This document shows positions 22,470-50,111 of a stretch of DNA of 64,000 nt, one piece after another. The position numbers were made by a program, and so were the translations under genes. The notes beneath the pieces are model-generated. The model made no database searches. It was given only the letters and a program-made list of their open reading frames with translations, and was not told the origin of the DNA. Location: assembly GCF_032854445.1 (NCBI RefSeq), contig NC_088297.1, positions 10,748,163-10,812,162 on the forward strand, in the 5' to 3' direction. Position 1 is the first letter of the stretch; every line of letters starts with the position of its first letter. Source of the DNA: Liolophura sinensis (lineage: Eukaryota; Mollusca; Polyplacophora; Chitonida; Chitonidae).

Positions 22470-22589
22470 GAAAACCAAATAATAATCATGCCTCCACGGC
22501 CAGATGACGATCTCTCCAAACTGGAGCAGTTGGACGAAGATCACATCTTACAAGCTTTAAGAAGAAGAAATATTCTTGACAACAATTAT
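22470..22589 (+). CDS. CS1: CS1 coding exon 1 (start codon)
   Basis: Acceptor tttatcag ends at 22,469. ATG is at 22,488, with a short 5' UTR that has in-frame stops upstream. The exon encodes 34 residues rich in Asp/Glu/Leu ([10 protein letters not shown]...), the start of the motor domain, and ends at donor gtaagt in phase 0. Confidence 0.85.
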
Positions 22590-25500: not shown

Positions 25501-28500
25501 CTATAGTGTCGTATACAAACGCCTTTAAACTGGTTTCGCAAGGCCATGTTTCGTCCAAAAATAATTCATTATCGCCATGCTCATTACAGAATCACGACAA
25601 AGCAACGACGAATACAATAATATCTTATACAAATCACGCATCTTTAAAGTCTATATTACAAAATGAAATGTTAAAGTCTTGAAGGTAAGAAAAAATTACA
25701 CTAAAGCGATTGTTTCTAAATCTTAAATAAAAATCACGTTTTGCCCAACATTTAAAGAGGCCACTGTACGTTGAAATAGGCTGTCGTATAGTCCTGAGTC
25801 AAACACCGACTGACTTTTCGCGCAGAAAGCATGGTATTGATTGACCGTTGAAATTTTACTTATTGTTCGCTGGCCCACTTTAGTGCAATGCATTGTTCAG
25901 GTTACGACGGTATATGTAGGACGACCCCTAACTCTGCAATGCAAACTGTGTTCAGTGCTTGATATGAAAAAACCATCCTGTCATGTCCCTGTGGGATTAC
26001 AGTATACCTATAGACCTAGATGTAATGGGCATTCTGATAGAACCATTCTGTATTCCCTCAAAAGACGTCTATACCACAAGGTGATCACTGAATCCCCGCA
26101 TAAATGTGTTATTATCCGCACATACAATTATATATGATTTATCCAACCGAGCATTTTGACACATATGCACGATTTAGGTCAGTGCGACATAATAAAATTT
26201 AAATATTCGTGTCACCTGACACATACATACGTGTATATATTCATCAAAAATAAAAAAAAAAATAAAAAAAATAAAAAAACGAACGTTTTGTGATAATTTT
26301 CTGTAATGTTATGTATGGTGTATGAATGACTCTATTGTTTTGTTCAGCAAATGACCAGCAAAATCAGCCATAGATGTCTTATATGGAATTATTGCAGTGT
26401 TTTATGCAAAGCTCCAACGTAAACGATGTATAAGTATGCGGCTAATGTCGATGACGAAAGTAAGTGGTAAAAAAGGTGTAATAGATGTAATTGTTATTAA
26501 TCATAGTAAGTATTTATTTATTTGCTTTGTGTTTTACGCCGTACTCAAGAATATTTCACTTATACGACGGCGGCCAGCATTATGGTGGGTGGAAACCGGG
26601 CAGAGCCCTGGGGAAACCCACGACCATCCGCAGGTTGCTGGCAGACCTTTCCACGTACGGCCGGAGAGGAAGCCAACCTGAGCTGGACTTGAACTCACAG
26701 CGACCGCATTGGTGGGAGACTTCCTGGGTCATTACGCTGTGCTAGCGAGCCACGGAGGCCCCTCATAGTAAGTATAAGTATAATCAAAATAAGTGGGGAT
26801 GGATTATTACCTACATGTTGATAATCGCCTTAAACTTGTTTTTCGCTTCAGACCTACATCGGAGACATACTCATAGCCGTGAATCCGTGCAAACCTGTTC
26901 GCATATATGAAGAAGAGGTAAGAGCGCATGAATATTTATATAATATAAACATCTGTTAATGTATTCATTCTTCGTTCATAAATATTCAACACGCCCGACC
27001 TAATTCATAAACAAATCTGATTGGTTGAACAGATCCTTTTTAAATCGTTGTCTGTTTTAGTACAGGGATATTGCTGACCCCACACTGATAGTTGTCCGGC
27101 TGGTCGAAGATAATACAAAAGGGAATTGTTAATTAAATGTATTTCCTGATGCTGAAAATATGACCCGTCGCGCCATGCCTGCAGTATCAGTGACCCGATT
27201 AGCTACATTGAAAATTAGACGTTTTTTGTTTATAAAACAAAATATCACAAGAAGCAACAAAATGAATAATCTGTATAACAGTAATATAAATTCTATGCCT
27301 TTATTTGAAAACAAATATTATTTTATTATAATAAGCTTTAATATAGTTAAAGTCGAAAACCCATAAACATACATAACAAAAGTTTATATCTGAAACCAGA
27401 CATCCTTTTCGCTATATTCGTCCACCCTAATAGCTACGGGTTCAATCCCGGCATTGGTAAAGACATTTTGTGGATTCCTCCGCTCTCAGCATGGATGCAT
27501 GTTTGGTGCCATCTAGCCTTCGACGACGCTGGTCGATGGTGCAATCAGAGGTTCGATGACAAGAGCCCTTGTCATCCAGTGTGGTGGGGAAAAAATCCGG
27601 TTTCCTCCTTGAGTTTCCCCCTTCGGTTTCCTCCGCCGATTAAACTGAACGCCATAGTATAAGTGAAAAAATCTAGTAAAGTAATTCTAATCAACCAATA
27701 ATCCCCCCCGCCCCCCCCCCCCCCCCCCCCCCAAAAAAAAGATATATTCCGACGAAGGTCAGATAATAATCAAGAGAATATTTAACTTGTACTGTATGAC
27801 CTGTTTCAGCATCACGAAACTTACAAGAATGTGTTGGCCCGGGACACACTGCCTCCGCACCCGTTCTGGGTGGCTGATCGAACCACCACGGAGGTGCTTC
27901 AGACGAGTCGGAACCAATGTATACTGGTCAGCGGCGAGTCGGGCGCGGGAAAAACCGAGACCACAAAACATATATTGAGTCATCTGGTGCATCTAGCGCC
28001 GAACACATCCTCAAGTCTTCTGGACAAAATTGTCAAGGTGAGCAGATAACATTTAGAACTGAGACGGCTAAACACATTTTGAGTCATCTGGTACATCTGG
28101 CGCCGAACACATTCTCAAGTCCTCTGGAGAAAATTGTCAAGGTGAGCAGATAGCGTTTAGAACTGAGAACATTTTTCAGGAGGTATAGACGTTTTGACGG
28201 GTACGTTAAAACGTAAAAAGATAGCTTTGGGTTTGCTTTAGATGTACAAGTAGATGCAGAGTAGATGTCCTGAACTTAGTTTGACTTATTGTTAACAAAA
28301 GCGTAAAGAGCTAAACGCCCAAGATAGGCTTGCTAAAATCAAGGTAATATCGAGGTGAAAATCATTACTAATATTTAGATAAGAAATTTACTTAGTTATA
28401 TCACGTATATATAAGACAGTAGGTGTGTCAAAAATCGTCTGGCGTCAAATGCCTGCCCAAATGAAACCTGCTTACAGTTTATCTCTCGAAGTAATTTACG

Positions 28501-31500
28501 TTGAATTTACGTCAGTTTACTTCCGGGTGAAGTTCCCTTGGCTAGGGACGATTTTTAACTGTAGAGGTTAGAATGTCGTAGAAAGCATCTTAAATTTGTC
28601 AGTAAACAGTAGCTTCATTCTTTTATGTCTGTTTCAGGTTAATCCATTATTGGAAGCTTTCGGCAATGCTTCTACCTCAATGAATACAAACTCAAGTCGG
28701 TTCGGCAAATTTATCGAACTCTTTTACAGAAACGATGGTTCTATATCAGGAGGTAAGAGTCTACAAATAATCGTCATTATCCAACGAAAAGACCGATTTT
28801 CTCTAATATAATTCCAAATCTACTTAATTTTAGTATTGTAGAAATCTTAAGTACTGAGATTAAGTACCACATTTAACTTCATACTACAATAAATTCTTGC
28901 ATCTCTTAGAGAAAAGATCGTCTGTTAAAATTAACAGATTAATTTTTGGCGTGTATATGAACTCTGATTAAAATTGGATCTTATACTTAATTTTTCGGAG
29001 CAGTTGTTTTAAATTTTACACATCATAAATTACGATATCATTACGTCCATCAAGGTAGCCCAAGAGTTCCTCCGACCAGGAGAGGCTCTTTAATTGCCAC
29101 GTTGTCTGATCATATTTTCACACTCACCTATTTTCGATTTTTTTACTTCCAGCAAAACTTCACGACTATCTCTTGGAGAAATCTCGCGTTATTCATCGAT
29201 CACCCGGCGAGAAGAACTTCCATGTGTTTTACTCCCTGTTTGCTGGGATGTCAGAAGAAAAACTGCTGTATTATTACCTCCAGAGGCCAGACGAACACAG
29301 GTAAGATGCTAATATGTGTAAACTTCATGTTAGACGACATGACGCTTTTCCACCAGATTTGCATGTTATCAGAGAGAAGTGTGTTCATGTGTCAGTCGTA
29401 TTAGTTTAGAGAAAATTGAGGCTGATTTAATAGATTCTAAAATCTTTGCTTTTCATTTTTTCCCGTACCAATTATTTTCTGTGTGTACCTAAACATGTTC
29501 TAAAATAAAAAGTTGACAGATAAAATGTGTAACATTGAATAGCAATATAGCCATTGAAATAGTATTAGAAAAAAAACAACTACTGAACATAAACGTATGT
29601 AGAGCTGGAAATATGTCATCTTAAAGAACTCCATTGCTGTTTTATTTGGGGTTTCAAAAACGACTGATGGTTAATTGTCCTGTCATTTCAGAATTTTATC
29701 CGATGAAGATGGCAGCCATGGTGTTTTTGGAAGCTCAGAAGAACATAGTCATTATAAAGAAATGTTTTTAGAGTTGATGGACATCATGACGTCACTGGGC
29801 CTGACTGATGACGTAAGCATTTACTTTTACATTTTATACATATAACGTGTCAAATTACCATTTACGTTAGTTTTCAAAGCGACAGAACCTATCAGTACCT
29901 TGGACGTATGACTGACAAATATCACCAACAAACTTTAAGCTTAACAATTTATTCCCTCCTTCCAACATGGCCAGAATGTAACAACTTTGGAAAAATCGGT
30001 AATAAAGTCAAGGAAAGCTGTTCCCCAGGCAGGACAAATGAAAACTTTCTTTGAAACAGTTATACGGGTGCTGAAATGAAAGCCTTCCGGAATGTTCACA
30101 TGAAATCTGCTATTTACTTTTCAGCAAATATCTCAGATATTTTTGGTTCTGGCTTCCATACTTCATGTCTCAAACCTGTCGTTTGTCCCGTGGGAGGAGA
30201 CCGGTGGGGTGAAGATCGCGGATGAGTACACGCTCCACGCTGTGGCCAATCTGCTCTCTTTAGACAACAGAGTAGAGCTAGCTGAAGCTTTGATATCCAG
30301 CGTGCATTTCATCAGAGGTATGTGTGCACACCTATTAAATTCTCTGCGTCACTCATCTGAGGTTTGTGTAGATTGTGTCATTATCACTGCTTGTGTTTTG
30401 GGACTTTGGAGGCGATGCTATTTCCCCCATCCATGACTGATGAACTGACCCTCGTGGTATAAGTGAAATATCCTTGAATATAGCATAAACAGAAATCATA
30501 TAAAATAACAAATCCCTCAGGTAAAAAGAATTTATACGTACATGTGTTACAGTATTACGTCACTGAAGCCAACTGGTGTGAGAAGTTGGTACCATTTTCA
30601 ATCCGGAAAAGTAACAGAAATAGAAACCTGTCTTTTAAAAGAGAGGCGCTTCCTCTCCCGCCGTATGCGGGAAGGTCTGATAGCAACCTGCGGATGGTCG
30701 TGGGTTTGCCCGGGCTCTGCCCGGTTTCCTACCACCATAATGCTAGCCGCCGTTGTATAAGTGAAATATTCTTGAGTACGCGCGTAAAACACCTCATCAG
30801 ATAAAGAAATAAAATAAAAGAGAGGCATCATTTATCATGTAGGTGATAAATATGGTATATATGTGTATACATACGTATGTCATTATACGGACGTTACAGT
30901 AGCATGTTTCTGTATTTGTAAACACCAAACAGAGCCTATAGATGATCTACATTCCTTGTTTCAGGAGAGAGAATACAAACGTTTAAAACAACTCACCAAG
31001 CCAATGACAGTCGAGACGCCTTGGCCAAAACACTTTACCTCAGATTGTTTGGTTGGCTGGTTGGAATCATCAACCAGTTGATTAGACCAGCCAATATGGA
31101 CTTCGGGTGAGTCACCTACAAAATGCAGTATGCGCAGAGTTAAACTTCCTTGTGTGTGAGTTTGGTCTAGGATTTACATATGAGCGCACTGAACACTGCA
31201 ACAAGTGTAACCTCGCCCAACAACATCCCAGTTGTGCTTTAATGAACATGCGGGAGCGGTAGATCAATGGTCAATCCTGGGTCGTGTCACACCTAAGACT
31301 TTAAAAGAGGAAGTTGTAGCTTCCTCGCGTGGAGGGCGGCTTTCATGCCTTCGCTAAGTCGTCTCAGTGAAGCAGCACTAGATAAAAGAACGGTGGAAAT
31401 CGTCCTGCAACAAGGAGGCACATTACATCCACTCTAAGGACTAAGGACTGAAAAATAGTACGACGTTAAACCCCAAGAGCTCACTCACCCACTTAATGAG

Positions 31501-34500
31501 CATGCGCACAGTTTACCTGGGTCAGATTTTTAAAACAACAGATTTTTGTTATTTTCTTTCAAAGGAAATCCACGGTCGGTATTCTGGACATGGCGGGCTT
31601 TGAGAATTTCCAGACGAACAGATTTGAACAGTTTCTGATTAACGCTTCCAATGAGCGTTTGCAGCAGTATTTCGTGGAACACATCTTCCCCCAAGAGAGG
31701 CGCCAATACGAGCTGGAGGGTTTAAAATGGACAGAAATCGATTACCCAGACAATGAAGCCACCATCAAACTTATTTTCGAGGTAAGCATTGTTTTAACTG
31801 TTTGATAAATATGACATAATATATCTACTAGTATAGCTTTCATATAATAAAAATGAACCAAGTGATTTACTCTTAAAAGACATGCGTACTTTACTAACAC
31901 AAGCAACAACAGGACAAAGGTATACGGCATAAAGAGATAGCATTTTAGAGAGAAGCATTTGAGAGAATCAGGCTTCGTTTTTTTTGTTTTACTTTTTTTG
32001 GACTTTTTTGTTTGTCTTGAAATGCAATACATACTTGAATCATAATTGCTGTAATAGCCCAATATTGGTTGTCAAAATTTTTTTCCTGGGAACAGGGCAA
32101 AGCAAAGTGCAAAGTGCAAAGTCTCCATGCTTTTAAAACTTTACACGACTTTCTTGATTTCGCACTTTTACAGAAGCCACACGGCATGCTTCCCCTCTTA
32201 GACGATGAGACCAACTTCCCGCAATCATCTGACGAGACCTATATCAAAAAGTTAGACAAGCTGTGTGATGAGAACGACAGGTACATCAGCTCTCTTAACG
32301 GCCGGACAGGCAATGTCGGCTTCGGTGTAAAGCATTTTGCCGAGCAGGTAATATCAGTGATCAGTCGATCATGCTAACAATTTATCAATTTAAAGAAAGC
32401 GGATCAGCCTCACAATAATCCAGTTAAAATATTTTTGTCTGTTTGGGTTAGAATTCTCTTCACTTCCAACAATATTTCTGTTCTACCGTATATATAGACA
32501 TATAAACATAGTGCTGCCTCACTGGAACGCCATGCCGAAGCCACGTATTACTCCCCACTCAGCCACAATACTCGGCCACCTGACCGGCTTGCCAGTTTAA
32601 AGCGATTCATGCAGGACGCAGTCTATGAGCTTCTTTCATGTTGCAACAATGAACGTTGCAACAATGAACGTTTAGTGTGGACATTAACAACGATTTTGAT
32701 AGCTGGTAGCCCCGAACGTATACTGATTACATCAGCTGTGAAAGTTCACAAATGACCCGGGTAAGTTTCATAGATTAATCAATAACTCAATCCGTCAATG
32801 TGTTTCAGGTATGGTACGATGCTGACGGGTTCCTTGAAAAAAACAGAGATTCCATCAACAGCGATCTGCTGTCCATCATTATGTCGAGCAAAAACCACTT
32901 CATCGCCGACCTTTTCGTGGCGTCCATGTCAGAAACCGGAACAATTTCAGGGTAAGACTTACCAAAATACAACAATGCATTTCCTCGTCTTTGTAGAGAT
33001 ATTAATTTATTTATTTGTTTTTACGCTGTACTCAAGAATATTTCACTTACACGACGACGGCCAGTATTTAGTGGGAGGACACCCAAGGCCATAAAAGTTC
33101 CACATAATGATTGGAATGCATAAATACTACGAGAACAATGTGTTGTCATCTGACGTTACGATTTTCTACACTGTGCAATCACAATAGACTTATGCTGGAA
33201 TTCTGTTGTTCCAGGTTCGCCAGCACGCACAAAATGCGAACAGGCCTACCTGAGTTCTGGCTGTCTTCCATAGAGCCGAAGAAACTTAAAGACAACCTCT
33301 CCAGAAAAGCATCGATGAAGATCAAAGAAAAGTAAGTATTACATTTTCATATATGGCCCATTACAAAATCTTTACCTCAGAATAGCCGCAGATAATGCCA
33401 GAATCAATGTCAATCTTCCAGTAATTAAAACAGTCCTTGTTTTCACCAAAAGCTTATCTAATCAGTCTTCATTTTAGGCAGATCGTGTAGTATAGAACTC
33501 GTGCTATATTTTGAAATATGTGATAAATTAGCGATATAAAGTTCATCATTTTTATTACCATTTATTGAAAGATACAGAGACACATACCAATCCGCTTTGC
33601 TGTGCTTTAACTAATTTCTAGCATCAGAGCAGCTTCTGTGGTTCGTCATGGTGAAACTAGTTTGCCAAACAGGTTGCTGACCGGTTTCACAAACCAGTGT
33701 GGCATTTACTCTTGAATAGAAAATGTCGATTACTTTTCCCCTAAAGCTTAAACTTAAATCAATGAATTAATCAATAAATTAAGGTTTGGTTAATATCTTT
33801 TGTTCATCAGGCTAAAACTTGCCACTCCAGAAGGCTTGTCAACTCCAAAGGATCGAACACTTACTTCAAGCACGCTCTCGAAACATTTCAAGGTAACCTA
33901 GCTTTTGGTTTTTTTAGGGGGCGGAGGTTAACTATAAATACATTTATCGTTCGTCATTTTAACCAAGCCTCTAAATAATTTAAAGATGTTTTTCTATTGA
34001 TTGTGGTCTGTCAGTGACGAGGACAAAATGCAGTCTGTCATCCAGACCGCAACCGTGGGCTGCTGATAAGTCTATACGGACAGAGCGGAATTAAACCTCA
34101 TGCCTTCGGCAGCTCACTGGCTCGGTTAATGTTGCAAACCTCCACAAAGGCTCACGTGGGGATACAGTCAGGTCTGGGTGGCGACAATGTCGGATAGCCA
34201 TGCGCAGTGGGTTTCTCACGCAAAAACAATCCCCACCTCCCATCCCTTTTAAAAGAAATTGTGACGGAAAAGATAATAGACGTAGGTTAAAAGGCGGCCC
34301 ATTTAACAATAATTCCGTTTCCGGTTTACGGAAATCTTATTGCTGGGACCCGTCCTCTCCAGTTTATGTAAGCCAGTGGCAGTTACACGCATAACTACTT
34401 CGCCACCAGCTCTTTCTGACTCGAAAATTAGCGCAGATCACTAGGTAGGCCGATATTTAGTTGCGAAATATGGTTAATATAAAACGGTTTGAACAAACTT

Positions 34501-37500
34501 TGAAAAGCCAAAACTTTTTCTGGATATAAATTTTCTGTTTCCATCTAAAAACCTGTTTTAATTTGTCAGTTTATTAGTATTTCTAATGTTTATAAAGAGT
34601 ATATTAGAAGTGTGGTCACAGCATGATGTGCTTTTTTGATTCTCTGTATTTTTGGTTGTTTTTTTTGTTTTTTCTTTGTTTTCTTTTTTTTTTGTTTTTT
34701 GTTTTGTTTTTTTTAGTTTTGTTTTGTTTGTTTGTTTGTTTAATAGTCATACCCAAACTTTTATCTTCAAGCACAATGACATATTTAAATATGGGCGAAG
34801 AATGGATACCTTTTTCTGATTGTAATCTGTACATAGTTAGTGAAGTGAAAAGTTTCAGTTTACTTCATCATCAACATGCAATCAATTTCCGTGTCTGGTT
34901 TGGATCAAGGAACACACCAAATTAGATTCGAACTGGTGTGGTATTAGGGTCACACCGTACAAAGCTGAGCTAGGTCTCATTGAATTCGAATAGACTGCAG
35001 GATGTCTGGGCCTTTGTACTTTGGTTTAACACACAACTGTATATACATACATATGATCAACACAGACATCTCATGAGTATGCATGAGTCTTTCTGTTAAC
35101 TGTGCTAAGTATACTTTGCGTCTAAGAATACTTATGACATGTGTAAGCCTCATTCAAAGGGGCTAATTAAATATTTATTTTTATTCAGAGATCTCTGGGA
35201 GATTTGATGACAAAGTTGTCGAAAGCAGAACCGCTGTTCATCAGGTAAGGAACCTAAACGTAAAACTTGTATTTTCAATGACATCATGTCGTACCATACA
35301 GCATATCTTTAACCGACTTTTCCACTTTTTTTCTGTCATGCCTTTGTCCATTTTTTCCTGTATACTCACCATTTCTTTTCCACTCTTGTCGATATGTTAC
35401 GACTGCGACTCGTTCCCACGGTGTTATTGAACCTCTTATGTCTTACACAGGTGCATAAAACCCAATCCCACCCTCACTCCGGGACGATTTGACGACAAAC
35501 TGGTGTTGAGACAACTTCAGTACAATGGACTCAGGTCAATTGCTCAACTGCGCAGGTCCGGATATCCGGTTAGGATAAAGTTTGAAGATTTCAACTCGAG
35601 GTGAGACCACGTATCATCCAGGCTGTGTGATGTTCATTGCTGAGTTACATTAGAACAAGAGAAGTTTGTGATTTGAGTTTTTACAAAAATGCTTGTGTGA
35701 TGATCTAAACCAAACTACAGGTCTTAGTTGCCATAGTTCAATCCTTAACTACTCGATCCATAAACCAATTAACCAATTAATCTGTCAGTCAGCCCCTCAA
35801 TCAGTCAGTCAGTCATTCAGTCAGTCAAGCAATTGAACAGTCATGGCCACCTATTCAATTATTAGAACTGCCATACTTTCCGTAGTTTTCAAACGATAAC
35901 TTCGTCTTTTAAGACCCCTCCCTTGTAAAATGGTAGCATAAAAATACAACTTAATACATTCCTTGCGGTAAAATTGATGTGTTCGTTGTCTCTTGCAAGG
36001 TACGAGTGTCTTGGCGTGGACCTTTCCGGAAGTCAAACTCCACCAGATAACTGTGAGAGTGTCTTACTGAAGGCTAACATTACCGGATATGCTTTAGGAA
36101 GAACCAAGGTAAATACTTACAAATAATGGAACGCCTTTTTAATGATTTTCAATGTGTTTTGATGTAAAACATTTAATCCTTTAATATGTATATAAGTAAA
36201 TTTAATTGGATCTAAGGGGTACAAATGAAAAAATTTAGTGGATTACAATTAAAGGGTACAATTAAATGAGTGTTCAGCTGTTTAGTGTAATTTTTAATCT
36301 TATTCAAGCTCTTAATGCGTTTCTGTTTTAAACAGGTTTTCTTAAAGTTGGAGCACAGAGAAAAGTTGGATGCATTGGCACAGAAAGCGGTAAGAACCAT
36401 GGAACAAATTTAAATCGAAGCAATTAGCGATGATATATTGTTAATCAGTTAAAACGTGTTCATTTAGTATACAATTTAAGATTCACTTTCAGCGTGTAAA
36501 CTGCTCATTAATGAAATGAAACAAATATGCCAAGATTTATAGAGTTTGTAGTTTGTTATTGTATTAGTACTATCTTATTTAAACTCAACCCCATCAGTAA
36601 TACATACTGCAACTTACAAGAGTTAAATTTGTCTAAATTTTAACTTTTGAGGTCGTAAACTACGTGACACTTTGAAGATTTACATGTTAACTCAAGTCGA
36701 AAATGTTTTTGAGGAATGCTGCGTGCTTAGCCTTTTGCTGTCTCCGTGGAATTTTGCCACCATTTGACACGTTACCATTTTCTCTCCTACAGCTGAGCGA
36801 GTCCCACTTAAGTGTAGCCTCCATCGACTATTCTGATCGACTGTCGGCTGTTGACGAAGAGGATACCATGAGCTTAGCCAGCACGACCAGAACGCATGCA
36901 TCCGCTAGCGACTCCGCCATCGAGCTCAACGACTTATCGTCCACCGGAAATGGATCGACATCGAAACTTCCGGCGCCTTCCAAGAAGCTGCAGATGAGAA
37001 TCCAAGAGCGCAGGAAGAAAGCGCCAAACATTTCTATCGACACGCGTCAAAAGAGATCAAAGAAAACGCAGCCTATCCAAGAACCGTTAGTATCTAATAT
37101 ATGTATTGTTTTCAGAATTTGTTCTCAAACGATGCAATAAGTTTGTGATAGAATTTGTGACATTTTCGTTCTTTTAAAAAACATCAGTCGTTATCTTTGT
37201 TGGGACAGTTTTTAAGAAAAGATTTATTTATTTATTTATTTATTTGATTGGTGTTTTACGTCGTACTCAAGAATATTTCACTTATACGACGGCGGCCAGC
37301 ATTATGGTGGGAGGAAACCGGGCAGAGCCCGGGGGAAACTCACGGCCATCCGCAGGTTGCTGGCAGACCTTCCTAACGTACGGCCGGAGAGGAAACCTGC
37401 ATGAGCAGGACTTGAACTCACGGCGACCGCATTTGTAAAAGGCTCCTGGGTCACTACGCTGCTTTAAGAAAAGAACTGTGGCTAAATAAGGATTGTAATA

Positions 37501-40500
37501 ATTTGTGCGATGTTTTATTACTATTATATTATGTCCGAGGGGGGTAGCACCTTGAAGCCATTCACCAATGCGGTCGCTGTGAGTTCAAGTCCAGCTCATG
37601 CAGGCTTCCTCTCCGGCCGTACGTGGGAAGGTCTGGCAGCAACTTGTGGTTGGTCTTGAGTTTTCTCCAGGCTCTACCCAGGTACCTCCCACCATAATGT
37701 TGGCCATTGTCGTATAAGTGAAATATTCTTGAGTATGGCATAAAACACCAGGCAAATGATTAAATAAATAAATATTATGGTTTTATCATTTCTTGCAGAA
37801 AGCCATACGACGTCTTCCAGAACACAGAGCGTGAAGTCGAAGACGCCGGAGAGATTTGGAAGAACATACTCAAGGTGTTACGTCTGATCGTATACGTTAT
37901 CCTGTTGGTGGCCTTATTCCTAGGCGCTGTTTCCATTAAGGTGTCCCTCCTTCTGCTGGCGTCACAAGTTAAGAAGGTGAGATTCGTTTCCTGTCCAGAG
38001 GAATACTTATTCTGAAAGTATTAAACTGATTCACCTATACATGTATAATATTACTGGATTTTGCATTAGGCATAGTAAAACTAGTTCCTCGTTCATTTAA
38101 TATAATAAAAGACATACAAAATAGAAAGTAAAACTAGAGTAGCGACGACAGTGGGATAGCTGACAAATGGTTACACGTAACCGGTGAAACACGGCTTCTT
38201 GCCAATTTACCTCATTTAGTGTTTTATTCTAACTGTTCATGTAAGTGCTTAACTGGTGGCTATTTACACGCCTCCTAGTACCATGACTGAAGTAGAATTA
38301 GGTAAAAAAAAACTACTGTGGTGTTCATTGCCAGTGTCGACGTCATCCACATTCTCAATTACATCCGTCAAACTTTAAACATAGTGAGTAATATCAAACA
38401 CCGTCACTATCGGCCTATCTTTTTCAGTCATCCACCCGGGTCAATGAGTACGCAACATTGTTGCTATTCTGTATCTGTGCTCCCGTTGCTGTCACGTGGT
38501 TATTTAGCTTAATGCGGGCATTATTTGGGTACAAGGAATGGCCGTCTCTTCTCAGTTTTACGGGGGTAAGTTGAGATATACCGTCTCGCATGTCTATATT
38601 ACGTGTCACCAGGAAAACCATACTTGTTAATTTCAAAGGTATAGATGTCCGGGTTTACTATTTCTGGTTAGTAAACTGAACACTCCCTACAGGACCGGTC
38701 ATACTGGTTATAATTGTGTTACATGTGAGTGCTTCAGGCCGAATCACATATGTAGGTAGTGTGTATTTCCTGAAACCATATCATTGTGGCACACCAGCCC
38801 TCTACAAAGGGAGGTAATGATAGTAGGCCTATTGTTATTCAAGTAATTGGACGCTATTACTTTTAACAAGACTTGCTTCCCTTTGTTTGAATAAGAAAAA
38901 CTTGTCTGCGGCATTCAAATCTCTAGTAACCATGAGCCAAGGTAAAATAAGGCTACACTTTTAGGATCTTTTTTACACTTTTATCATGTGTATCTTATTT
39001 TTTCCTCTGTGTTTTTTGCTTCCAGTCATGGCTGATAGAGATGCTTCACACGCTCGGTGTTTGCATCTTAGTCTTCCGTATTCTTCCATCGACGACTTTC
39101 CTAAATGGAATAATTATATGCTTGGCGCTGTGCCAAGTACCGGCATTCCTGAAAGTCATGACGTACTGCAAACGTCCCAACCAAGGCTGGAGAGGATGGC
39201 TTCTGACTGCACTTAATCTAGTCGCGCTTTTGGTTCAAGTGGCCGCGATTCCATTTTTCATGCTATTTAACTTCTTAAACGCAAACGGTGCGCAATGGAC
39301 AGACGCTGCTGGCATGCTGAAAACATTTTCGGCGCCCTCACTGTCGATAAGCTGGGAGCTGCCTGTCGCCATTCTGTGCATCTCTTTGAGCTGGTGGGAA
39401 AACTTCGTCGCGGATGATTGGGAATTTTTCTGCGGAAAACTCAGAGTACCCGTTCTCCAGTGGAAAATCACCATGCACGAGACGCGGGACACGACCTACA
39501 TGCTGGTTGGTCCGTTCAAAATCGGCTTCGCCGTACTATTGGCTCATTTGTTTGTCGAAGGTCACGTGTTCCTGTTACCGAACTACGAATCGGCTAATTT
39601 GGGCAACACCGTGTCTGATTATTTCTCATATTACGGTCTAATGTACATCAACATCGGCTGTGGGTTCATATGCACCTACCTGGCGGGAATGGCGTGTAAG
39701 CTTCATATGCAGGCCATCTCCTTCGCATTGCCTTTAATGCTGGCGCCTGCTGGAGCCGTTACAGTGGTGTTGTGTCAGTGTTACTACCAGTTCATGGACT
39801 TTGCGTGGTACACCACGGCCTGGCTCTGTCCCGAAAGAGACCTCTCTCAGCTGTGGATTCCACTTACCGTCGCTGGGGTTCTCTGGCTGTCTAACATGGT
39901 GATTCTATCTCACATATGGTTCCCACAGAACGAGCGGATGGCAAAGCTTGACAGGTAACACGTTAACATAATAACGTAGTGAAAACTTTACTGTACAAAG
40001 TGTAAAATCAGAGCAGCGACCACAGTGTGCTAATTGATAATTGGTCACACGCAATCGGTGAAATACAGACTCTTCTGAATTTACCTCAGTTCGGATAGCT
40101 TCAACAGTAGCACATTACACCTAGCTCAATGACTTGAACAGAATTACGTCAAAATGATGGTGAATTATTATGTACAATAAGACACAATTTTTCTGTACCG
40201 TTTCCCCAGGATGTTTGTGATGCCGAACTACGACGGAATCCTTACTGCCACTTCCTTAATGATGCGACGTCGACGCGACGACAAGGAGAGCTGGCTGATG
40301 TTCCGTGATCGGATACAGCACGAGGAGACTGTCGGCTACATGGGTGACACGCCGATGATTTACGTCTGCGCGACGATGTGGCACGAGACCAGACGGGAAA
40401 TGACGCAATTGCTGAAGTCCCTCTTCCGGTAAGTGACCAAAATTTTCTCTGGTTTCTTTATTATTTATTATTATTACTATTTAATAATAATAATAATATT

Positions 40501-43500
40501 TATGATTTATTGTTAAATTATTATTTCATTGTTAAAGTTAAGCCATAGTTATGCATTCTATTCAAATGTGTCGTCAACAGTAAAGAGACAATAGGAGGTT
40601 TTACCCATAATGCAAACTTTAAAACTCATGGAAATAAATTTTACTCCACATACCTTCAAAATAACGTGTCTGTAGAATATTTCCTCCATGTGATCTAACT
40701 GAGGAACCTTTCCCACCTAAAGTAATTTGGGGTCAACTTGTGCAGTCTGATGTTCTTTTTCCTGCTTGTGCGATGACTGGTTATGGGTAAACTAGTCCTC
40801 ATATGCGTGTATTAGAAGAGAACAGTGGAAAGTCAGATTTGGACCCAAGTGACCATTGCCTAAGAAAAGCTACCTCATTCTATTTGTTTCTTGAAGTTTT
40901 CGTGTGACGCCACTTGTACTTCACACACAAGATTTTACTGTTCTTATGGTTTACCTTTCATCTATTTTTTAGCCTTGATTACGTTCACTGTGCCAGTCGC
41001 ATTGCACAAGAGCAGTTGAACATTAATGATCCGGATTATTACGATTTGGAAGTTCATATCATTTTTGACGACGCGTTTGAGGACGACGACGAAAGTCAAA
41101 GTCGGGTGCCCAATGGCTTTGTCAGGCAGTTATGTGACTGTATTCCAGACGCCGCCAGGTAAAATATTGCACAGACGTTCAACATCTGTTTGTTTCAACA
41201 ACATGTTATTGCAGTAAACCATAGCTGGTATTGATATTCTTCTACTGCTTTTCCACTGGTTACAACATTAATTCCTGTTTGTAGCTCTAACATACTGTAT
41301 GGGATATATTATGCCCCATGGCGCTTTACTTTCAAACTGCACCCCTCGTGTACTACTTTAAGCAAGGATATATTGAGTATAAACACCGAAATAATTTTGT
41401 TTAAATAGATAAAATATTAAGTGCAGAAATGTAATCTTATTTTTGACAACAGTTCCGTGGCTAAGGGCGCTATCAACATACCCGGTCCAGAGAGATGCAC
41501 AACGCCCTATGGTGGACGACTGACGTGGACAATGCCTGGAAACACCAAAATGATCGTCCACATGAAGGACAAGAACAAGATCAGGCACAGAAAGAGATGG
41601 TCACAGGTAAGGTCCTGGAAAATAATGTAACCAAATAAAATAAGTAACATGCTATTATGAAATAAGCAACCTGTAGTTATGAAATAAGCAATCTACCTGT
41701 AGTATTGAAATAAGTATCCTGTAGTTATGAAATAAGCAAGCTGCATGTAGTATTGAAATAAGTATCCTGTAGTCGTGAAAAAAAGTGACCTGGAGTAATA
41801 TAACAACGTGTAGAAATGAAATAAGCAGCCAAAGAGCATTTAGTCAGCCAGGACAATGAAAGAACTGCATGTAACTTATGTTTTATGTAACTATCGATTG
41901 GTTTCCGGAAGAATTATTTTATTTGTTTTGTTCTTTTAGAGTTTCTGTTTACGGTATTTACGGTTTCTGTTAAATTTTCTTCCCCGTCATTTGATAGTTT
42001 TAAGACCTCTCTCTTTTGTGTACACCGTGTATTACCCCCACCCCACCCCCACCCCCGCCTATATTGTGTGTGGATTGTATCGCTAAATATCAACCGGTGA
42101 ATCAATCAGTCATGACTTTTTCCTTGTACAGGTCATGTATATGTACTATCTTCTCGGGTTTCATCTGCTTGGAACTAAAGTGGCAGACAAAGCCATGACT
42201 CAAGGTTTCGCTCAGTCTGACGCCGACGACAGCAATCTGTCGACTGCAGCCAGACACCGGAAAAGGAGCAGCGACGCGAAGGCCGAGAAGAGACGACACC
42301 GAGCTGGACCTATCAGTTCCATGTTTAGACGGATTGCTAGAGACAAATTTGAAAAGGTACACATGTACGGATGACATTGCTCAAAGATTCGAAACATTTG
42401 TAACTTGATACGTTATATTGTCTTGTCATATTCCATGCACAGTCTTCTCTGTCGTGAATGTATGTAAACACGGTGGTTTACTCAGGGCACTCCGGATTCT
42501 TACAGCCATAAATTGACCTCCTTTGAATAAGTAAAAAATTCTTTCGTAGGACGATAAAAAACAAATAAAATAGATAAAAAGGTACTCTTTTTAATTTGCT
42601 CTATGGACAAGCTTGACAATTTAGATAGAGGTGTTAACTATTTTCAGCAGCGTTCTACGTTTTCACAGCCAAATAATGAGGGCAGTGTTGTCTAAGGTAA
42701 CTTTAAGCATGAATAGCAATTTTAGGTGACCAGATGGTTCTGTTTTGATAACATTCAAATGATGTATCTAAACCACGTATTTTTTTTTTCTTTACACAGG
42801 CTGAGAATACTTTTATTCTGACCTTGGACGGCGACGTTGACTTCAAACCGGATGCTGTAAAGCTCTTGCTAGATCGTATGAAGAAAAATAAGAAAGTCGG
42901 TGCTGTTTGTGGAAGGATTCACCCAATTGGTTCAGGTGAGTTGTGGAAACAGAGTTTTAACGTCGAGTTTTGTGTGTTCAGCTTGTTGTGTATATAGATT
43001 CACGTTTACTTCACCGTTCATAATATTCAGCTTTGGTAATGAATATTCGGCTTCTAGCTGAACTGAACATTTTTTTCATGAAAGACATCAGTCACTAGTT
43101 TCCCTGTAAAATGTTATGGCAAATGACAGAAATGAACAATTAGGCGCGAAATGTTAAATCTTCTAAGGAAAACAGATTACAGTACTCAATGCACAAACGA
43201 ATCATTTAATGACAGTTGAAAGATTTTGCTATGTGGAACTGTAAAAAACGAGTGTAAACATCTGACCTCTGAAATGAGTCGTAGCAAATCTAAGTGCATA
43301 ATAATTGACCCCGGACCACACTAAAGCCTTGGGAGCTAGTGTTAAACGTTGTTTTGGTAATGGATCTTGCGATTATCGACTTGGAAAGCCCTTTACGGAC
43401 TACGAATGGTATATGAATGTCGAACATGACGCTTATATTTATATTGCTTCTTTCATCCACAGGCCCGATGGTGTGGTACCAGCAGTTTGAGTACTCGGTG

Positions 43501-45846
43501 GGTCACTGGCTCCAGAAGGCCGCTGAGCACGTGTTCGGATGTGTTCTCTGCTGCCCAGGCTGCTTCAGTTTGTTCCGTGGATCAGCTCTTATGGACGATA
43601 ATGTGATGAAGACGTATACTACCAAACCTACCGAAGCGACCCATTACATCCAGTTCGAACAAGGTGAGCGTTCTCTTGGATTAGCCTCAAGCTAATGTCT
43701 GGATTCTTTCCATTTCTCAAGGTATTTCTCACCTACACAAGCCGGGTCCAAACTCCATTCTCAATTCCCAAAGGAATAAGTTTAGAACATGTTCTTTAAA
43801 ATCATATTCATTGACTGTATCAACGTGCATCGGTATTATAAAACTGATACGCTTTTTGCTACAACATGCATTTTATTCTTGACTTTTGCTGAAGACTTTG
43901 TAGAGTGAAACTTTAATTAGTATTAATAAAACTAAATTTTAAAAAATTCTCTTTTCAGTAACACCTAATAAATGTGTATTTTTCCCTGTTTAGGTGAAGA
44001 TCGTTGGCTATGTACACTGTTGCTGCAACAAGGACACAGAATCGATTACTGCGCAGGCGCGGATGCTTTGACCTTTGCCCCGGAGACATTTGAGGAATTC
44101 TTCAACCAGAGGCGAAGATGGTCGCCGTCGACAATGGCGAACCAAGTTGATCTTCTCTCCAGCTGGCGACCAACAGTTCAAGTTAACGACAACATTAGCA
44201 AACTTTACATCCTGTACCAGTTCGTGCTCATGGCCTCGACGATCCTGGCTCCATCTACTGTTGTGCTGGTCATCACCGGCTCCTTCTTCACCATCTTGAA
44301 GATCGGAATCTGGCCATCGTATGCTCTCGCTGTACTACCGGTTCTCTTCTTCACAATTATCTGCATGAAGTGCAAAACTAAAACCCAGCTGAATGTGGCA
44401 GGAATTTTGAGCGCCCTCTACACCGTCGTCATGGTGATCGTGACAGTCGGTACGATTTTCAATATCGTCAAGGAAGAGTTCTCGAGTCCAAACGTTGTTT
44501 TCTTGACTGGAATGGCAGCCATTTTCTTGATCGCTGGTAGCTTCCACCCGCAAGAGTTCACATCATTGATCTACGGTATACTGTATTTCCTTACCGTCCC
44601 ATCCACTTTCATCCTCCTGACAGTGTTCTACCTGTGCAACATGCATAACGTCTCTTGGGGAACGAGAGAATTACCCAAGAAAATGACGGCGGAGGAGTTG
44701 GCGGATCAGCGGAAGGAGCTGCTAAAAAAGCAAGAGAGAAAACGCAACAAAGGTATATTGGGTTGGCTTGGGTTGGGCACAGTCGTCGAGGAAGTGAAGG
44801 ACCTGGTCAGAGGTATAATGAAAAATAAGGATAGCAAATCAGACGAAACCACCAATCTGACTGCTGCGGAAGAGGGTGAAGCTAGTAGTCAGGATGAACT
44901 CATAGTGGAAAACACATCTCGTTCGCCGGTCCTACCGCACGTCAACGTAGCGCACAGCTTCAGACAGGAGCGAGGCATCCAAAACGTGGACTGGACAAAG
45001 GTTGACTACGTGGGCAGAGGCAGAACGGTCAAGATCAACAGCTCAGAGAACGACTTTTGGGTGGACATCATCGGAAAGTACCTGCACCCTATCGACGAAG
45101 ACAAAGGCCACCAGCAGAAAATCAAGGACGATTTGATTTCGTTGCGCAACAACGTCGTCTTCGCCTTCATGCTCGTGAACTTTCTCTGGACAGTGATCAC
45201 GATTCAACTGCAAGTTCTGGAGGACGAAATCAAAGGGTTCTTCATCGAAGGAAAGTACGAACCGCTCTCTCTACTCTTCCTAGCTATTTTCGCCTTCATC
45301 TTGTTGCTACAGTTCTTGGCCATGTTCGCTCATCGCTGGGGAACGTTTCTTCACTTGATGTCCAGTACTCACATCGACTGGTTCAGAAATAACTTCGGGG
45401 AGGAGGATTTTGTGAAGTTCGCCCTGGAGGAGACGAGGCGATTGGCCACGGTGGAGCCTGAGCCAGATTGTTCCGACGACGTAAGTGATGACGATTCCGG
45501 GTACAGAGAGCACGAGCCTGTACCGCGCGTTCAAGACGACAACGACGCCGACGTCCCGCAACTGCAGAAGCTCTTCGAGAGGAACATTAGGCGCATGACA
45601 AGCAGGCAGAAGAAGAAGGCACATTTCAACGAGGATCCTTCATCTCCCGTTAAGCGAAATGCCACGTTTAGTCGACACTCCAGAAAAATCAGCAGTAAGA
45701 AACGCAAGAATCAGCAATATCGCCTTGAACTTATTAACAGGTCGGTGTCCATGCGCAATCCAGCGAATCAGAACTCGACTGTGGTGAATATCGAGAGACC
45801 CAGCGTGAGGCAGTCACAGAGTATAGAGGCTCAAACACGTATCTGA
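22470..45846 (+). CDS. CS1: Chitin synthase with N-terminal myosin motor domain (28 coding exons, 2,242 aa)
   Basis: The spliced frame (ATG 22,488, TGA 45,844-45,846; 6,729 nt) encodes a membrane chitin synthase fused to a myosin head. Visible in the sequence: P-loop GESGAGKT (about residues 98-105), switch [10 protein letters not shown] (148-156), switch II DMAGFE (380-385), the GRTKVFL segment after the converter (to about 725), a basic/serine-rich linker (740-850), a first membrane helix (about 858-890), a multi-helix block (943-1,251), and glycosyltransferase family 2 motifs: [15 protein letters not shown] (from 1,522), GEDRWL (1,626-1,631) and QRRRW (1,664-1,668). Further membrane helices, a charged coiled-coil-like stretch, two late helices and a basic tail follow. 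The order and length match molluscan myosin-chitin synthases (about 2,250-2,290 aa, from memory). Family knowledge: it polymerises UDP-GlcNAc into chitin at the plasma membrane, and the motor is thought to couple synthesis to actin. All key residues are intact and no stop or frameshift interrupts it. The ATG exon begins at a splice acceptor, so at least one upstream 5' UTR exon is unidentified. Confidence 0.95.
23215..23450 (+). mobile_element. SINE-B in CS1 intron 1 with (CACT)n tail
   Basis: Closely matches the 4.6-kb copy (CTTGCCTTCGGTAAGTCGTC, CGTCATATGACTGAAAAATT) and ends in an expanded CACTCACTCAC array. Confidence 0.82.
26511..26762 (-). mobile_element. SINE-A, full length, in CS1 intron 1
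   Basis: TATTTATTTATTTG tail, complete core, and head CAGCGACCGCATTGG...GCCACGGAGGCCC. It ends about 90 bp before the acceptor of CS1 exon 2. Confidence 0.88.
26852..26917 (+). CDS. CS1: CS1 coding exon 2
   Basis: This 66-nt exon encodes [15 protein letters not shown]..., the hallmark N-terminal strand of the myosin head (family pattern [13 protein letters not shown]). Acceptor cttcag, donor gtaaga, phase 0 at both ends. A SINE-A copy lies about 90 bp upstream. Confidence 0.95.
27706..27733. repeat. Poly-C tract
   Basis: A C-run of more than 20 bases interrupted by one G, about 75 bp upstream of CS1 exon 3; prone to length error. Confidence 0.85.
27810..28037 (+). CDS. CS1: CS1 coding exon 3 (myosin P-loop)
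   Basis: This 228-nt exon carries the ATP-binding P-loop [10 protein letters not shown] and the following helix. Acceptor gtttcag; donor gtgagc at 28,038. The last 81 nt of the exon plus the donor are duplicated directly downstream (28,061-28,164). The first donor must be used, because reading through it gives KVSR then a stop. Confidence 0.95.
28061..28164 (+). pseudogene. Partial tandem duplicate of CS1 exon 3 with a second donor site
   Basis: A 104-bp unit (27,957-28,060: 3' end of exon 3, donor and first intron bases) is repeated in tandem at 28,061-28,164 with a modest number of substitutions. The copy keeps an open reading frame resembling the original ([20 protein letters not shown]) and its own gtgagc donor at 28,142, but has no acceptor, so it should be spliced out as intron. 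It lacks the P-loop. Confidence 0.85.
28638..28752 (+). CDS. CS1: CS1 coding exon 4 (switch I)
   Basis: Encodes [11 protein letters not shown] and the switch I motif NTNSSRFGK. Acceptor gtttcag, donor gtaaga, ending in phase 1 (the split codon gives Ala with exon 5). Confidence 0.95.
29153..29300 (+). CDS. CS1: CS1 coding exon 5
   Basis: Encodes [12 protein letters not shown] and the [10 protein letters not shown] core strand of the myosin head. Acceptor ttccag, donor gtaaga, phase 2 end. Confidence 0.95.
29692..29812 (+). CDS. CS1: CS1 coding exon 6
   Basis: Encodes the acidic segment [12 protein letters not shown]...MTSLGLTDD of the upper 50K region. Acceptor atttcag, donor gtaagc, phase 0 end. 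Confidence 0.93.
30125..30317 (+). CDS. CS1: CS1 coding exon 7
   Basis: Encodes [20 protein letters not shown], the conserved helix of the 50K domain (family pattern ILxxLAAILHLGNI), then the VANLLSLD segment. Phase 1 end with donor gtatgt. Confidence 0.95.
30650..30820 (+). mobile_element. SINE-A, 5'-truncated, in CS1 intron 7
   Basis: Core from CTCTCCCGCCGTATGCGGGA to TTGAGTACGCGCGTAAAACA and an A-rich tail, sense to the host gene. Confidence 0.8.
30965..31106 (+). CDS. CS1: CS1 coding exon 8
   Basis: Encodes [19 protein letters not shown], equivalent to the family DALAKxLYxxLFxWLV helix. Acceptor tttcag, donor gtgagt, phase 2 end. Confidence 0.95.
31255..31498 (+). mobile_element. SINE-B body and tail after a D-like head, in CS1 intron 8
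   Basis: CCTGGGTCGTGTCACACCTA resembles the SINE-D head. From 31,335 the body is family B (TTCGCTAAGTCGTCTCAGTG) with tail ACGACGTTAAACCCCAAGAG. It may be a chimeric copy, or B's normal head. Confidence 0.65.
31565..31781 (+). CDS. CS1: CS1 coding exon 9 (switch II)
   Basis: Encodes [10 protein letters not shown] (switch II) and [11 protein letters not shown], the relay helix region. Acceptor ttcaaag, donor gtaagc, phase 0 end. Confidence 0.95.
32174..32347 (+). CDS. CS1: CS1 coding exon 10
   Basis: Encodes [16 protein letters not shown], matching the myosin G(I/V)LxLLDEExxFP element, then [10 protein letters not shown]. Donor gtaata is weak but phase 0 continues exactly into exon 11. Confidence 0.95.
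32640..32669. repeat. 15-bp tandem duplication in CS1 intron 10
   Basis: GTTGCAACAATGAAC twice, exact. Confidence 0.9.
32809..32951 (+). CDS. CS1: CS1 coding exon 11
   Basis: Encodes [20 protein letters not shown], the actin-binding side of the lower 50K domain. Ends in phase 2 before loop 2. Confidence 0.95.
33003..33080 (-). repeat. SINE-A tail/core fragment in CS1 intron 11
   Basis: Minus-strand TTTATTTATTTGTTTTTACG, then CACTTACACGACGACGGCCA. Confidence 0.65.
33215..33331 (+). CDS. CS1: CS1 coding exon 12 (loop 2 region)
   Basis: Encodes a polar, Lys-rich stretch ([19 protein letters not shown]) at the position of myosin loop 2. Acceptor gttccag, phase 2 end. Confidence 0.88.
33811..33892 (+). 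CDS. CS1: CS1 coding exon 13 (loop 2 region)
   Basis: Short exon (27 codons) rich in Thr/Ser ([17 protein letters not shown]). Acceptor catcag, donor gtaacc, phase 0 end. It is low in conserved motifs and is supported mainly by frame closure. Confidence 0.85.
34640..34745. repeat. T-rich (TTTTG)n low-complexity tract in CS1 intron 13
   Basis: Nearly pure T with single G or C, ending in TTTGTTTGTTTG; explains the low-complexity open frames on both strands. Confidence 0.9.
35189..35244 (+). CDS. CS1: CS1 coding exon 14
   Basis: Encodes [19 protein letters not shown], matching the family pattern L..LM..L....P.F(V/I)RCIKPN. Split Arg codon joins exon 15. Confidence 0.95.
35451..35600 (+). CDS. 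CS1: CS1 coding exon 15
   Basis: Encodes [18 protein letters not shown] and [21 protein letters not shown], the myosin SH-helix and converter start. Acceptor acacag, donor gtgaga. Confidence 0.96.
36000..36108 (+). CDS. CS1: CS1 coding exon 16 (converter)
   Basis: Encodes the converter segment ending [10 protein letters not shown]. Acceptor ttgcaag, donor gtaaat, phase 0 end. Confidence 0.93.
36336..36389 (+). CDS. CS1: CS1 coding exon 17 (end of motor)
   Basis: Eighteen codons, [18 protein letters not shown], complete the GxTKVFL motif that closes the motor. No IQ motif follows. Confidence 0.93.
36793..37085 (+). CDS. CS1: CS1 coding exon 18 (linker)
   Basis: Encodes 97 residues rich in Ser, Asp and then Lys/Arg, the cytosolic linker between motor and membrane domains. 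The donor gttagt at 37,086 is chosen because it gives the split Pro codon needed for the frame of exon 19. Confidence 0.88.
37220..37465 (-). mobile_element. SINE-A, near full length, antisense in CS1 intron 18
   Basis: TTTATTTATTTATTTATTTG tail at left, well-preserved core and B-box region (GACTTGAACTC), ending around CTACGCTGC. It forms an inverted pair with the copy at 37,550-37,775. Confidence 0.85.
37550..37775 (+). mobile_element. SINE-A, sense in CS1 intron 18, beside the exon 19 acceptor
   Basis: Head from ACCAATGCGGTCGCTGTGAG, core, and tail AAATAAATAAATA ending about 25-30 bp before acceptor tcttgcag. The tail occupies the usual branch-point region. Confidence 0.85.
37799..37976 (+). 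CDS. CS1: CS1 coding exon 19 (first membrane helix)
   Basis: Encodes [15 protein letters not shown], then a long hydrophobic stretch ([16 protein letters not shown]...). The acceptor tcttgcag is only about 30 bp from the tail of a SINE-A copy. Confidence 0.94.
38140..38285 (-). repeat. Repeat family C copy in CS1 intron 19
   Basis: Reverse orientation: GGTTACACGTAACCGGTGAA, TTGCCAATTTACCTCATTTA and CTAACTGTTCATGTAAGTGC. Confidence 0.75.
38428..38565 (+). CDS. CS1: CS1 coding exon 20 (membrane helix)
   Basis: Encodes [20 protein letters not shown], a membrane helix, then GYKEWPS. Donor gtaagt, phase 0. Confidence 0.93.
39026..39954 (+). CDS. CS1: CS1 coding exon 21 (multi-helix membrane block)
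   Basis: This 929-nt exon encodes about six hydrophobic helices with Trp-rich loops ([20 protein letters not shown]). It corresponds to the conserved membrane region preceding the catalytic domain of animal chitin synthases. Phase 2 end. Confidence 0.95.
40000..40105 (-). repeat. Repeat family C copy in CS1 intron 21
   Basis: AGCAGCGACCACAGTGTGCT, GGTCACACGCAATCGGTGAA and GAATTTACCTCAGTTC. Confidence 0.7.
40210..40428 (+). CDS. CS1: CS1 coding exon 22 (start of catalytic domain)
   Basis: Encodes [27 protein letters not shown] is a diagnostic block of animal chitin synthases. Phase 2 end. Confidence 0.96.
40973..41158 (+). CDS. CS1: CS1 coding exon 23
   Basis: Encodes [18 protein letters not shown], an acidic catalytic-domain segment of the family. 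Acceptor tttttag, split Ser codon at the end. Confidence 0.95.
41453..41606 (+). CDS. CS1: CS1 coding exon 24
   Basis: Encodes [13 protein letters not shown] and [12 protein letters not shown], two highly conserved chitin synthase blocks. Acceptor acaacag, donor gtaagg. Confidence 0.96.
41636..41835. repeat. Degenerate ~22-26-bp minisatellite in CS1 intron 24
   Basis: Repeated units of the form TATGAAATAAGCAACCTGTA with length variation, about eight units, starting about 30 bp after exon 24. Confidence 0.85.
42132..42356 (+). CDS. CS1: CS1 coding exon 25
   Basis: Encodes [14 protein letters not shown] then a basic insertion ([17 protein letters not shown]). Such a charged insert is a plausible site for variation between family members. 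Phase 0. Confidence 0.94.
42800..42935 (+). CDS. CS1: CS1 coding exon 26 (catalytic Asp)
   Basis: Encodes [17 protein letters not shown], the DxD-type donor-binding motif of GT2 enzymes, then [14 protein letters not shown]. Phase 1 end. Confidence 0.97.
43463..43663 (+). CDS. CS1: CS1 coding exon 27
   Basis: Encodes [20 protein letters not shown] and [14 protein letters not shown], acceptor-site blocks of the catalytic domain. Phase 1 end. Confidence 0.97.
43994..45846 (+). CDS. CS1: CS1 coding exon 28 (catalytic end, C-terminal helices, stop)
   Basis: Largest exon (1,853 nt). It starts with [14 protein letters not shown], then the product-binding motif QRRRWSPST, about six membrane helices, the charged segment [17 protein letters not shown], two late helices (around [14 protein letters not shown] and [16 protein letters not shown]) and a basic Ser-rich cytosolic tail ending at TGA 45,844-45,846. 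Confidence 0.97.
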
Positions 45847-48982: not shown

Positions 48983-49375
48983 TTAAAAACGACGACATCT
49001 GTTAAGAAAATTGGCCAGGGCCTGGAAAGTCTTATTTCGGTTGGCTTTAGGATTTAAAACAGATGCTAACGTAAAATGCCGAAGGCCAATGGAGCGTAAG
49101 TCCCGGTAAAGAACACGGCGAGCGTTAGAGTGCCGGGTACACGTAAATAAGAGATGAGCGATATCATCGTTAACTAGGCATATGTCACATAACCCAGATG
49201 GGTGCAGATTCATTCTGAATAAATAGGTATTTGTAGGTACATGTCCAGAAATAAGGCGGAAAACTAGCGTTTCATCTCGTCGGGAACGTAATGATATTGG
49301 CGAATTTAACAAGACAGAACGATTATACTCGTGAAAAAACCTCCCCTTATTAGCTTCATCCACTGCCGCTGCCAA
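48983..49375 (-). pseudogene. LINE ORF2: C-terminal CxxC...H...C region
   Basis: Encodes LISGHVPTNTYLFRM, SGLCDICLVNDDIAHLLFTC and FLNRCRRF, the usual end of RNase H-bearing LINE ORF2 proteins. Confidence 0.8.
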
Positions 49376-49445
49376 ATATCCACAAACTTAGATGCGACAT
49401 GACTCATAATTTCATTAATGTTTAAGGGCACGTGTATGGATATAT

Positions 49446-50111
49446 CTAAAAAGGATAAAGCTCTCTTCGCCAGGCCATTTCGTTCCCCACAATACCGACA
49501 TGAGCTGGTACCCAGTCAAAACTCACAGTGTATACCTGCAAGTACTGGGATAGGCTTGTATGTATATATTCCGTAGCACATAGTAAGGAAACATTCGGAT
49601 TATCAGATTTTTTTCTATCCTCGTTCAGAGTAGTCGAAATATAGGGAGGTTCTAGATTCCATGTGGGGAAATCAGGAACACGGGATGACTGCAAAGCAAC
49701 ATTATCACAATCTAAAGACGAAGATATGTTCTTTGATCTCAAACTAAATGGTAACCCAGCATAACTATTTAAGTGATGCAAGTTGTCATAAAAGGAAGGT
49801 TCGAGCAAACGAGACGAAGCATTATTAACCGAACATTTGAGCCTGAAAAAGAACTTGAGGGTGCGCAGGCGCCGACGGATAGACAATGGCCATTCGTTAC
49901 AGAATACCTGTAGAACGTTAAGTGGTGTGGTGCGCATGCCTCCTGTACATATCCGCAGCGCTGCGCACTGAACAGAATCTAATTTTTCTTTAAGCGTAAT
50001 GCAAGCAGAATCATAGGCTTCACAACAATAATCAAGTTTGGTACGGATGAGAGAGCGATATAGCAGTAGTAATGATTTTTTCTCAGCCCCCCCAAGATTT
50101 GCCCGATACAC
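49446..50111 (-). pseudogene. LINE ORF2: thumb and RNase H-like fragment
   Basis: Continues from the palm in another frame, with CEAYDSACITLKEKLDSVQ (thumb) and, near its end, WVPAHVGIVGNEMA, the last RNase H block. The frame is lost directly after this motif. Confidence 0.8.

Follow-up and report, generated by a model that had tools for sequence, protein, structure and literature searches.

A predicted myosin motor–chitin synthase fusion gene of a chiton, with the motor as a probable actin tether or tension sensor

The window, i.e. the whole 64,000-nucleotide stretch of Liolophura sinensis DNA that was analysed, contains a plus-strand gene that very probably encodes an animal myosin motor fused to a chitin synthase, with the motor probably serving as an actin tether or tension sensor on a membrane polymerase. 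As judged from its sequence, the gene is a further member of the published lophotrochozoan myosin-chitin synthase family and not a new kind.

Gene model and the two halves of the protein

Positions 22381–46380 of the plus strand were read and exons were joined by their splice signals. This yielded 28 coding exons, with GT–AG borders at all 27 introns, and a closed frame whose sole stop is terminal (45844–45846). The coding sequence comprises 6,729 bases including the stop, has no internal stops and intact splice sites, and specifies a product of 2,242 amino acids. An earlier note had given 28 exons, phases that all close and 2,242 residues; joining the exons reproduced these figures exactly.

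Exon 1, 22470..22589, +: 18-nt 5' UTR, ATG at 22488, residues 1–34; preceded by an acceptor
Exon 2, 26852..26917, +: residues 35–56; in the myosin X alignment; weak codon score
Exon 3, 27810..28037, +: residues 57–132, P-loop GESGAGKT (98)
Exon 4, 28638..28752, +: residues 133–171, switch I (148); weak codon score
Exon 5, 29153..29300, +: residues 171–220; myosin X alignment, paralog splice sites
Exon 6, 29692..29812, +: residues 220–260; myosin X alignment, paralog splice sites
Exon 7, 30125..30317, +: residues 261–325; myosin X alignment
Exon 8, 30965..31106, +: residues 325–372, acidic E326 before DALAK; myosin X alignment
Exon 9, 31565..31781, +: residues 372–444, switch II DMAGFE (380)
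Exon 10, 32174..32347, +: residues 445–502; myosin X alignment, paralog splice sites
Exon 11, 32809..32951, +: residues 503–550; myosin X alignment, paralog splice sites
Exon 12, 33215..33331, +: residues 550–589, lysine-rich loop 2 region; outside the myosin X alignment
Exon 13, 33811..33892, +: residues 589–616; weak codon score; only its last residues in the myosin X alignment
Exon 14, 35189..35244, +: residues 617–635; myosin X alignment, paralog splice sites
Exon 15, 35451..35600, +: residues 635–685; myosin X alignment, paralog splice sites
Exon 16, 36000..36108, +: residues 685–721, converter region; myosin X alignment
Exon 17, 36336..36389, +: residues 722–739, 54 nt, without an IQ motif
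Exon 18, 36793..37085, +: residues 740–837, linker, Ser/Thr-rich then basic
Exon 19, 37799..37976, +: residues 837–896, first transmembrane-like segment; placed in four paralogs
Exon 20, 38428..38565, +: residues 897–942, hydrophobic segment; weak codon score; paralog comparison
Exon 21, 39026..39954, +: residues 943–1252, hydrophobic segments; paralog comparison
Exon 22, 40210..40428, +: residues 1252–1325, CATMWHE (1305); paralog comparison
Exon 23, 40973..41158, +: residues 1325–1387, FDDA (1356)
Exon 24, 41453..41606, +: residues 1387–1438; paralog comparison
Exon 25, 42132..42356, +: residues 1439–1513, long basic insert preceding the LDGD exon
Exon 26, 42800..42935, +: residues 1514–1559, LDGD (1522); Pfam and paralog comparison
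Exon 27, 43463..43663, +: residues 1559–1626; Pfam and paralog comparison
Exon 28, 43994..45846, +: residues 1626–2242 and stop; GEDRW (1626), QRRRW (1664), SWGTRE (1846); hydrophobic segments and tail in its C-terminal part

Because position 22470 is the first base 3' of a splice acceptor, a further, non-coding 5' exon is expected upstream. The gene, previously described as complete, is thus complete in its coding region, but the transcript is incomplete in this span. The leader contains no in-frame stop from 22470 to the ATG and hence does not prove the N-terminus. In the matching first exon of the paralog C8b, however, an in-frame TAA read from the DNA precedes the ATG, which favours a coding start within exon 1 of the window gene.

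Pfam Myosin_head (PF00063) matched residues 7–725 (E 2.9e-184) and Chitin_synth_2 (PF03142) matched residues 1517–1743 (E 1.8e-28). All of the motifs claimed earlier (P-loop, switch I, switch II, LDGD, GEDRW and QRRRW) were located in the protein, together with SWGTRE, an instance of the SWGTR(E) motif specific to chitin synthases, and the acidic residue E326 occupies the TEDS position of the motor. With its catalytic motifs intact, each half looks active. Comparison of the motor with solved sequences gave 151 distinct matches at E up to 0.001, and myosin X, VII and XV headed the best 60 of these (E down to 5.4e-139). The synthase half, which has many hydrophobic segments with the first membrane-like one at ~863, matched seven solved sequences, of which one is a hyaluronan synthase and the other six are chitin synthases (best E 5.4e-15).

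Both Chitin_synth_2 pieces in the window are exons of this same gene, so a second chitin synthase gene there was rejected; by eye, a codon-usage scan of both strands gave no other chitin-synthase-like piece. Myosin XVI and III carry N-terminal ankyrin and kinase domains, respectively. Upstream exons of this type were dropped as candidates, as none was seen by eye among plus-strand open frames of at least 62 aa, and the sole upstream frame scanned with Pfam (5945–6247, plus strand) had no matches.

Several other features were observed in the window. The end of exon 3 and the start of intron 3, donor included, are duplicated in tandem as 108-bp copies (27953–28060 and 28057–28164). The P-loop is absent from the second copy, and translation continued beyond the first donor meets an in-frame TAA. 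Birth of intron 3 from this duplication was rejected: the second copy includes intron sequence from beyond the donor, which means that the intron predates the duplication. A dispersed repeat family has many copies across the window, including within introns (e.g. 26506–26750, 30648–30819, 37222–37462 and 37556–37776); exon 3, through the tandem duplication, is the only one of the 28 exons that overlaps repeats. Pieces of a non-LTR retrotransposon lie on the minus strand at 48986–52276, with an endonuclease match, reverse transcriptase matches in a pair of overlapping frames, and matches to RNase H and zf-RVT that fall under their cut-offs. On the minus strand, tail to tail with the chitin synthase gene, a copper type II ascorbate-dependent monooxygenase gene is represented by pieces (59900–63505), with one frame matching Cu2_monooxygen and two matching Cu2_monoox_C, of which one is below the cut-off.

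Support from alignments, codon usage and paralogs

Sixteen of the 27 junctions fall inside alignments to sequences from outside the family, 14 in the myosin X chain 5kg8_A and two in Pfam Chitin_synth_2. For eight of the remaining 11, paralogs have splice sites at the homologous place, both sites for junctions 20/21, 21/22, 23/24 and 24/25 and one site for 11/12, 18/19, 22/23 and 25/26. The paralog test gave no support for junctions 12/13 (loop 2), 17/18 (linker) and 19/20, the sole agreement at 19/20 being an extrapolated GT and AG in C8b. For these three junctions, splice consensus and frame are the main basis.

An exon entered the paralog test if its top match in a type II paralog (C8a, C8b, C6 or C4) scored at least 15 above the runner-up, and the test asked for a splice site at the homologous place and in the same phase. 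Acceptors were found in 35 of 40 cases and donors in 35 of 38, against a background of 0.055–0.064 of dinucleotides for AG and GT. Three of the successes were coincidental, since C8b reads through at the exon 3 donor, the exon 4 acceptor and the exon 8 acceptor, the last as judged by a tblastn match over residues 306–368 and an open frame. Without them the counts were 33 of 38 and 34 of 37, respectively, and C8b appears to lack introns 3 and 7. Acceptors failed for exon 9 in C8b, exon 19 in C8a and C6, and exons 21 and 26 in C4, and for exon 19 no matching donor was present in any of the three paralogs tested (C8a, C6 and C4).

Codon usage was scored against 400 control segments, whose overlap with exons was checked at just three points, and for 12 of the 28 exons no control was both open and equally high-scoring. 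The weakest scores were those of exons 2, 4, 13 and 20, which 41 to 68 of the 400 controls reached. In exons 5 and 13 an alternative open frame outscores the frame used.

A Chitin_synth_2 search of the genome (609,464,459 bp, 632 contigs) found 14 pieces at nine sites, the window gene included. For the eight further sites, tblastn was applied to the regions surrounding five; C11:3974693 was left out. The paralog C8b (C8, ~9.12–9.15 Mb) has a motor followed by a synthase on one strand, the same order as in the window gene, and its P-loop, switch I and switch II are intact. C8a (C8, ~20.03–20.09 Mb) has pieces matching motor exons 7, 9–11 and 14–17 and synthase counterparts of exons 19–22 and 24–28. 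Its exons 16 and 17 were under the placement cut-off yet in order, exons 8, 12 and 13 were not recognised in the region compared, and the region covered did not extend to motor exons 1–6. The two halves of the C8a switch II exon (exon 9; L030 ~1630–1835) match in two frames one base apart. Such an apparent shift may mean that the C8a motor has decayed or was assembled wrongly. For C6 and C4, both with synthase exons, ~27 and ~26 kb of upstream sequence, respectively, showed no recognisable motor exon. Beside the window gene, the genome holds at least two motor-bearing chitin synthases, C8a and C8b.

Over the shared columns of residues 1511–1850, the four type II paralogs are 57.1–63.8% identical to the window protein, and three C11 loci (L003, L005 and L008) are 34.7–36.1% identical. 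A tree split the two sets with a support of 100; the branching order among the type II paralogs was not resolved (support 63–71). Chitin_synth_2-like pieces at C11:3974693–3975100 and L005 have a stop inside the match, and these are possibly introns read through or decayed copies. The exon 25 insert, from VMYMYYLLG to AENTF, is 75 aa in the window gene, ~69 in C8b, ~59 in C8a and ~41 in C6, with the donors of these three paralogs picked by eye; in C4 it is 26 aa and intron-free. The longest inserts are those of the motor-bearing copies.

The lever region and the role of the motor

After the converter, the window protein continues into a ~110-residue linker, Ser/Thr-rich and then basic. No IQ motif was found in the 2,242-aa protein by a strict or loose pattern or by Pfam at E up to 0.1, nor in the three frames of 36000–37800. 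The motor therefore appears to be without a light-chain lever motif, provided that exons 17 and 18 are complete. The C8a stretch matching exon 17 follows an AG and continues for 231 nt in frame to GTAAGG, compared with 54 nt in the window gene, and it includes one canonical IQ motif, VQALVRGVLAR, after the converter (C8 ~20065115). C8b has no strict IQ motif in 40 kb and two loose ones in its linker region. It cannot be called lever-less, because these loose motifs are present and exons 17 and 18 lie outside its model.

The mechanism that we propose is as follows. On its cytoplasmic side the protein would bind cortical actin through the motor in an ATP-dependent manner; the membrane half would polymerise UDP-GlcNAc into chitin that is passed outward. 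Because a light-chain lever was not recognised, the stroke is expected to be short, and tethering or tension sensing at an actin-rich membrane would be likelier than processive transport. Among published actin-link models, PMC4595640 proposes that the myosin head may translate cytoskeletal organisation into the chitin scaffold and PMC8003268 suggests a mechanical link in shell-forming cells.

An alternative is that the motor acts as an actin tether that does not cycle, with the synthase as the sole enzyme. The unrecognised lever, the apparent one-base frame change in the C8a switch II exon, and the synthase exons of C6 and C4 without a recognised upstream motor, which make the motor seem dispensable, would all fit such a tether. 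Nevertheless, the intact P-loop, switch I and switch II of the window gene and C8b argue for a kept ATPase, and we regard the alternative as unlikely, if worth bearing in mind. A further reading is that the myosin-chitin synthases of this one animal are split into lever-armed (C8a) and lever-less (window gene) motors, the latter being actin-gated clamps or tension sensors and not transporters. This split is doubtful; it had already seemed improbable and was marked down further because of the frame change in C8a. The IQ difference between the window gene and C8a would be one mildly new point, and it offers a concrete way of asking whether the motor pulls or only holds.

Could a neighbouring unconventional myosin and a chitin synthase, i.e. 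two genes, have been wrongly joined? Linker junction 17/18, with neither outside homology nor paralog support, is where such an error could lie. However, the frame of exons 17–19 is open and stop-free across introns of just 403 and 713 bp, C8b repeats the motor-then-synthase order on one strand in one region, and the fusion is a published family (PMC3942024). Two separate genes were accordingly rejected as highly improbable. A pseudogene or assembly artefact, to which only the 108-bp duplication at the exon 3/intron 3 border might point, was dismissed with near certainty given 6,729 coding bases without an internal stop, intact splice sites, and stops in both other frames of 23 of the 28 exons.

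The known family and comparison systems

In 2006, Weiss et al. described a myosin-chitin synthase fusion in bivalves (as cited in PMC3942024 and PMC2241824), and the lophotrochozoan family is also treated in PMC4595640. According to PMC3942024, the family occurs in molluscs, brachiopods, myzostomids and annelids, with named type II members (groups A–C) that include those of Atrina, Pinctada, Mytilus, Lottia and Lingula; the fusion was traced by inference to the ancestor of lophotrochozoans, and three of the groups bear a motor whereas one does not. In PMC3942036 the motors of annelids and molluscs were assigned to myosin XVI and regarded as convergent with fungal class XVII. A paper title in the reference list of PMC3709759 states that a mollusc enzyme made in Dictyostelium is active. 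The window gene leaves this family picture unchanged. Among the gene-structure papers listed by one search, no title points to a map of a molluscan myosin-chitin synthase gene, although we do not claim its absence from print, as PMC5583752 deals with myosin evolution and has text on gene structure; the exon-domain map and the same-genome paralogs make it straightforward to plan cDNA tests and motor assays.

The earlier interpretation of a single, intact-looking fusion gene with active-looking motifs is well supported, whereas its label of a biomineralisation enzyme is unproven for the window gene. The E22 mineral-interacting domain of Atrina Ar-CS1 has the lysine peptides AKKKKKAS and EEKKKKKES (PMC3709759). 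Unlike Ar-CS1, the window protein has no counterpart of these KKKKK peptides, and no run of four or more lysines occurs in its 2,242 residues. Annelids, including tube worms with non-calcareous tubes, also have motor-bearing chitin synthases (PMC3942024, PMC8476170), and in one such worm 7 of 19 copies bear a motor (PMC8476170). The fusion does not, therefore, imply a mineralised shell.

Like the fungal myosin XVII chitin synthases (classes V and VII), the window protein joins a myosin head to Chitin_synth_2. Unlike them, it lacks Cyt-b5 and DEK_C, neither of which was matched at E up to 0.1 among 12 Pfam families, and a fungal-type fusion was rejected; the fungal protein is published as an independent fusion (PMC3942024, PMC3942036). 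The window gene shares motor and synthase pieces with C8a, from which it differs in the canonical IQ motif and the apparent exon 9 frame shift of C8a. In architecture the window protein resembles the lophotrochozoan type II enzymes, with an N-terminal myosin head, a multi-pass membrane half, and Chitin_synth_2 with GT2 motifs and SWGTRE.
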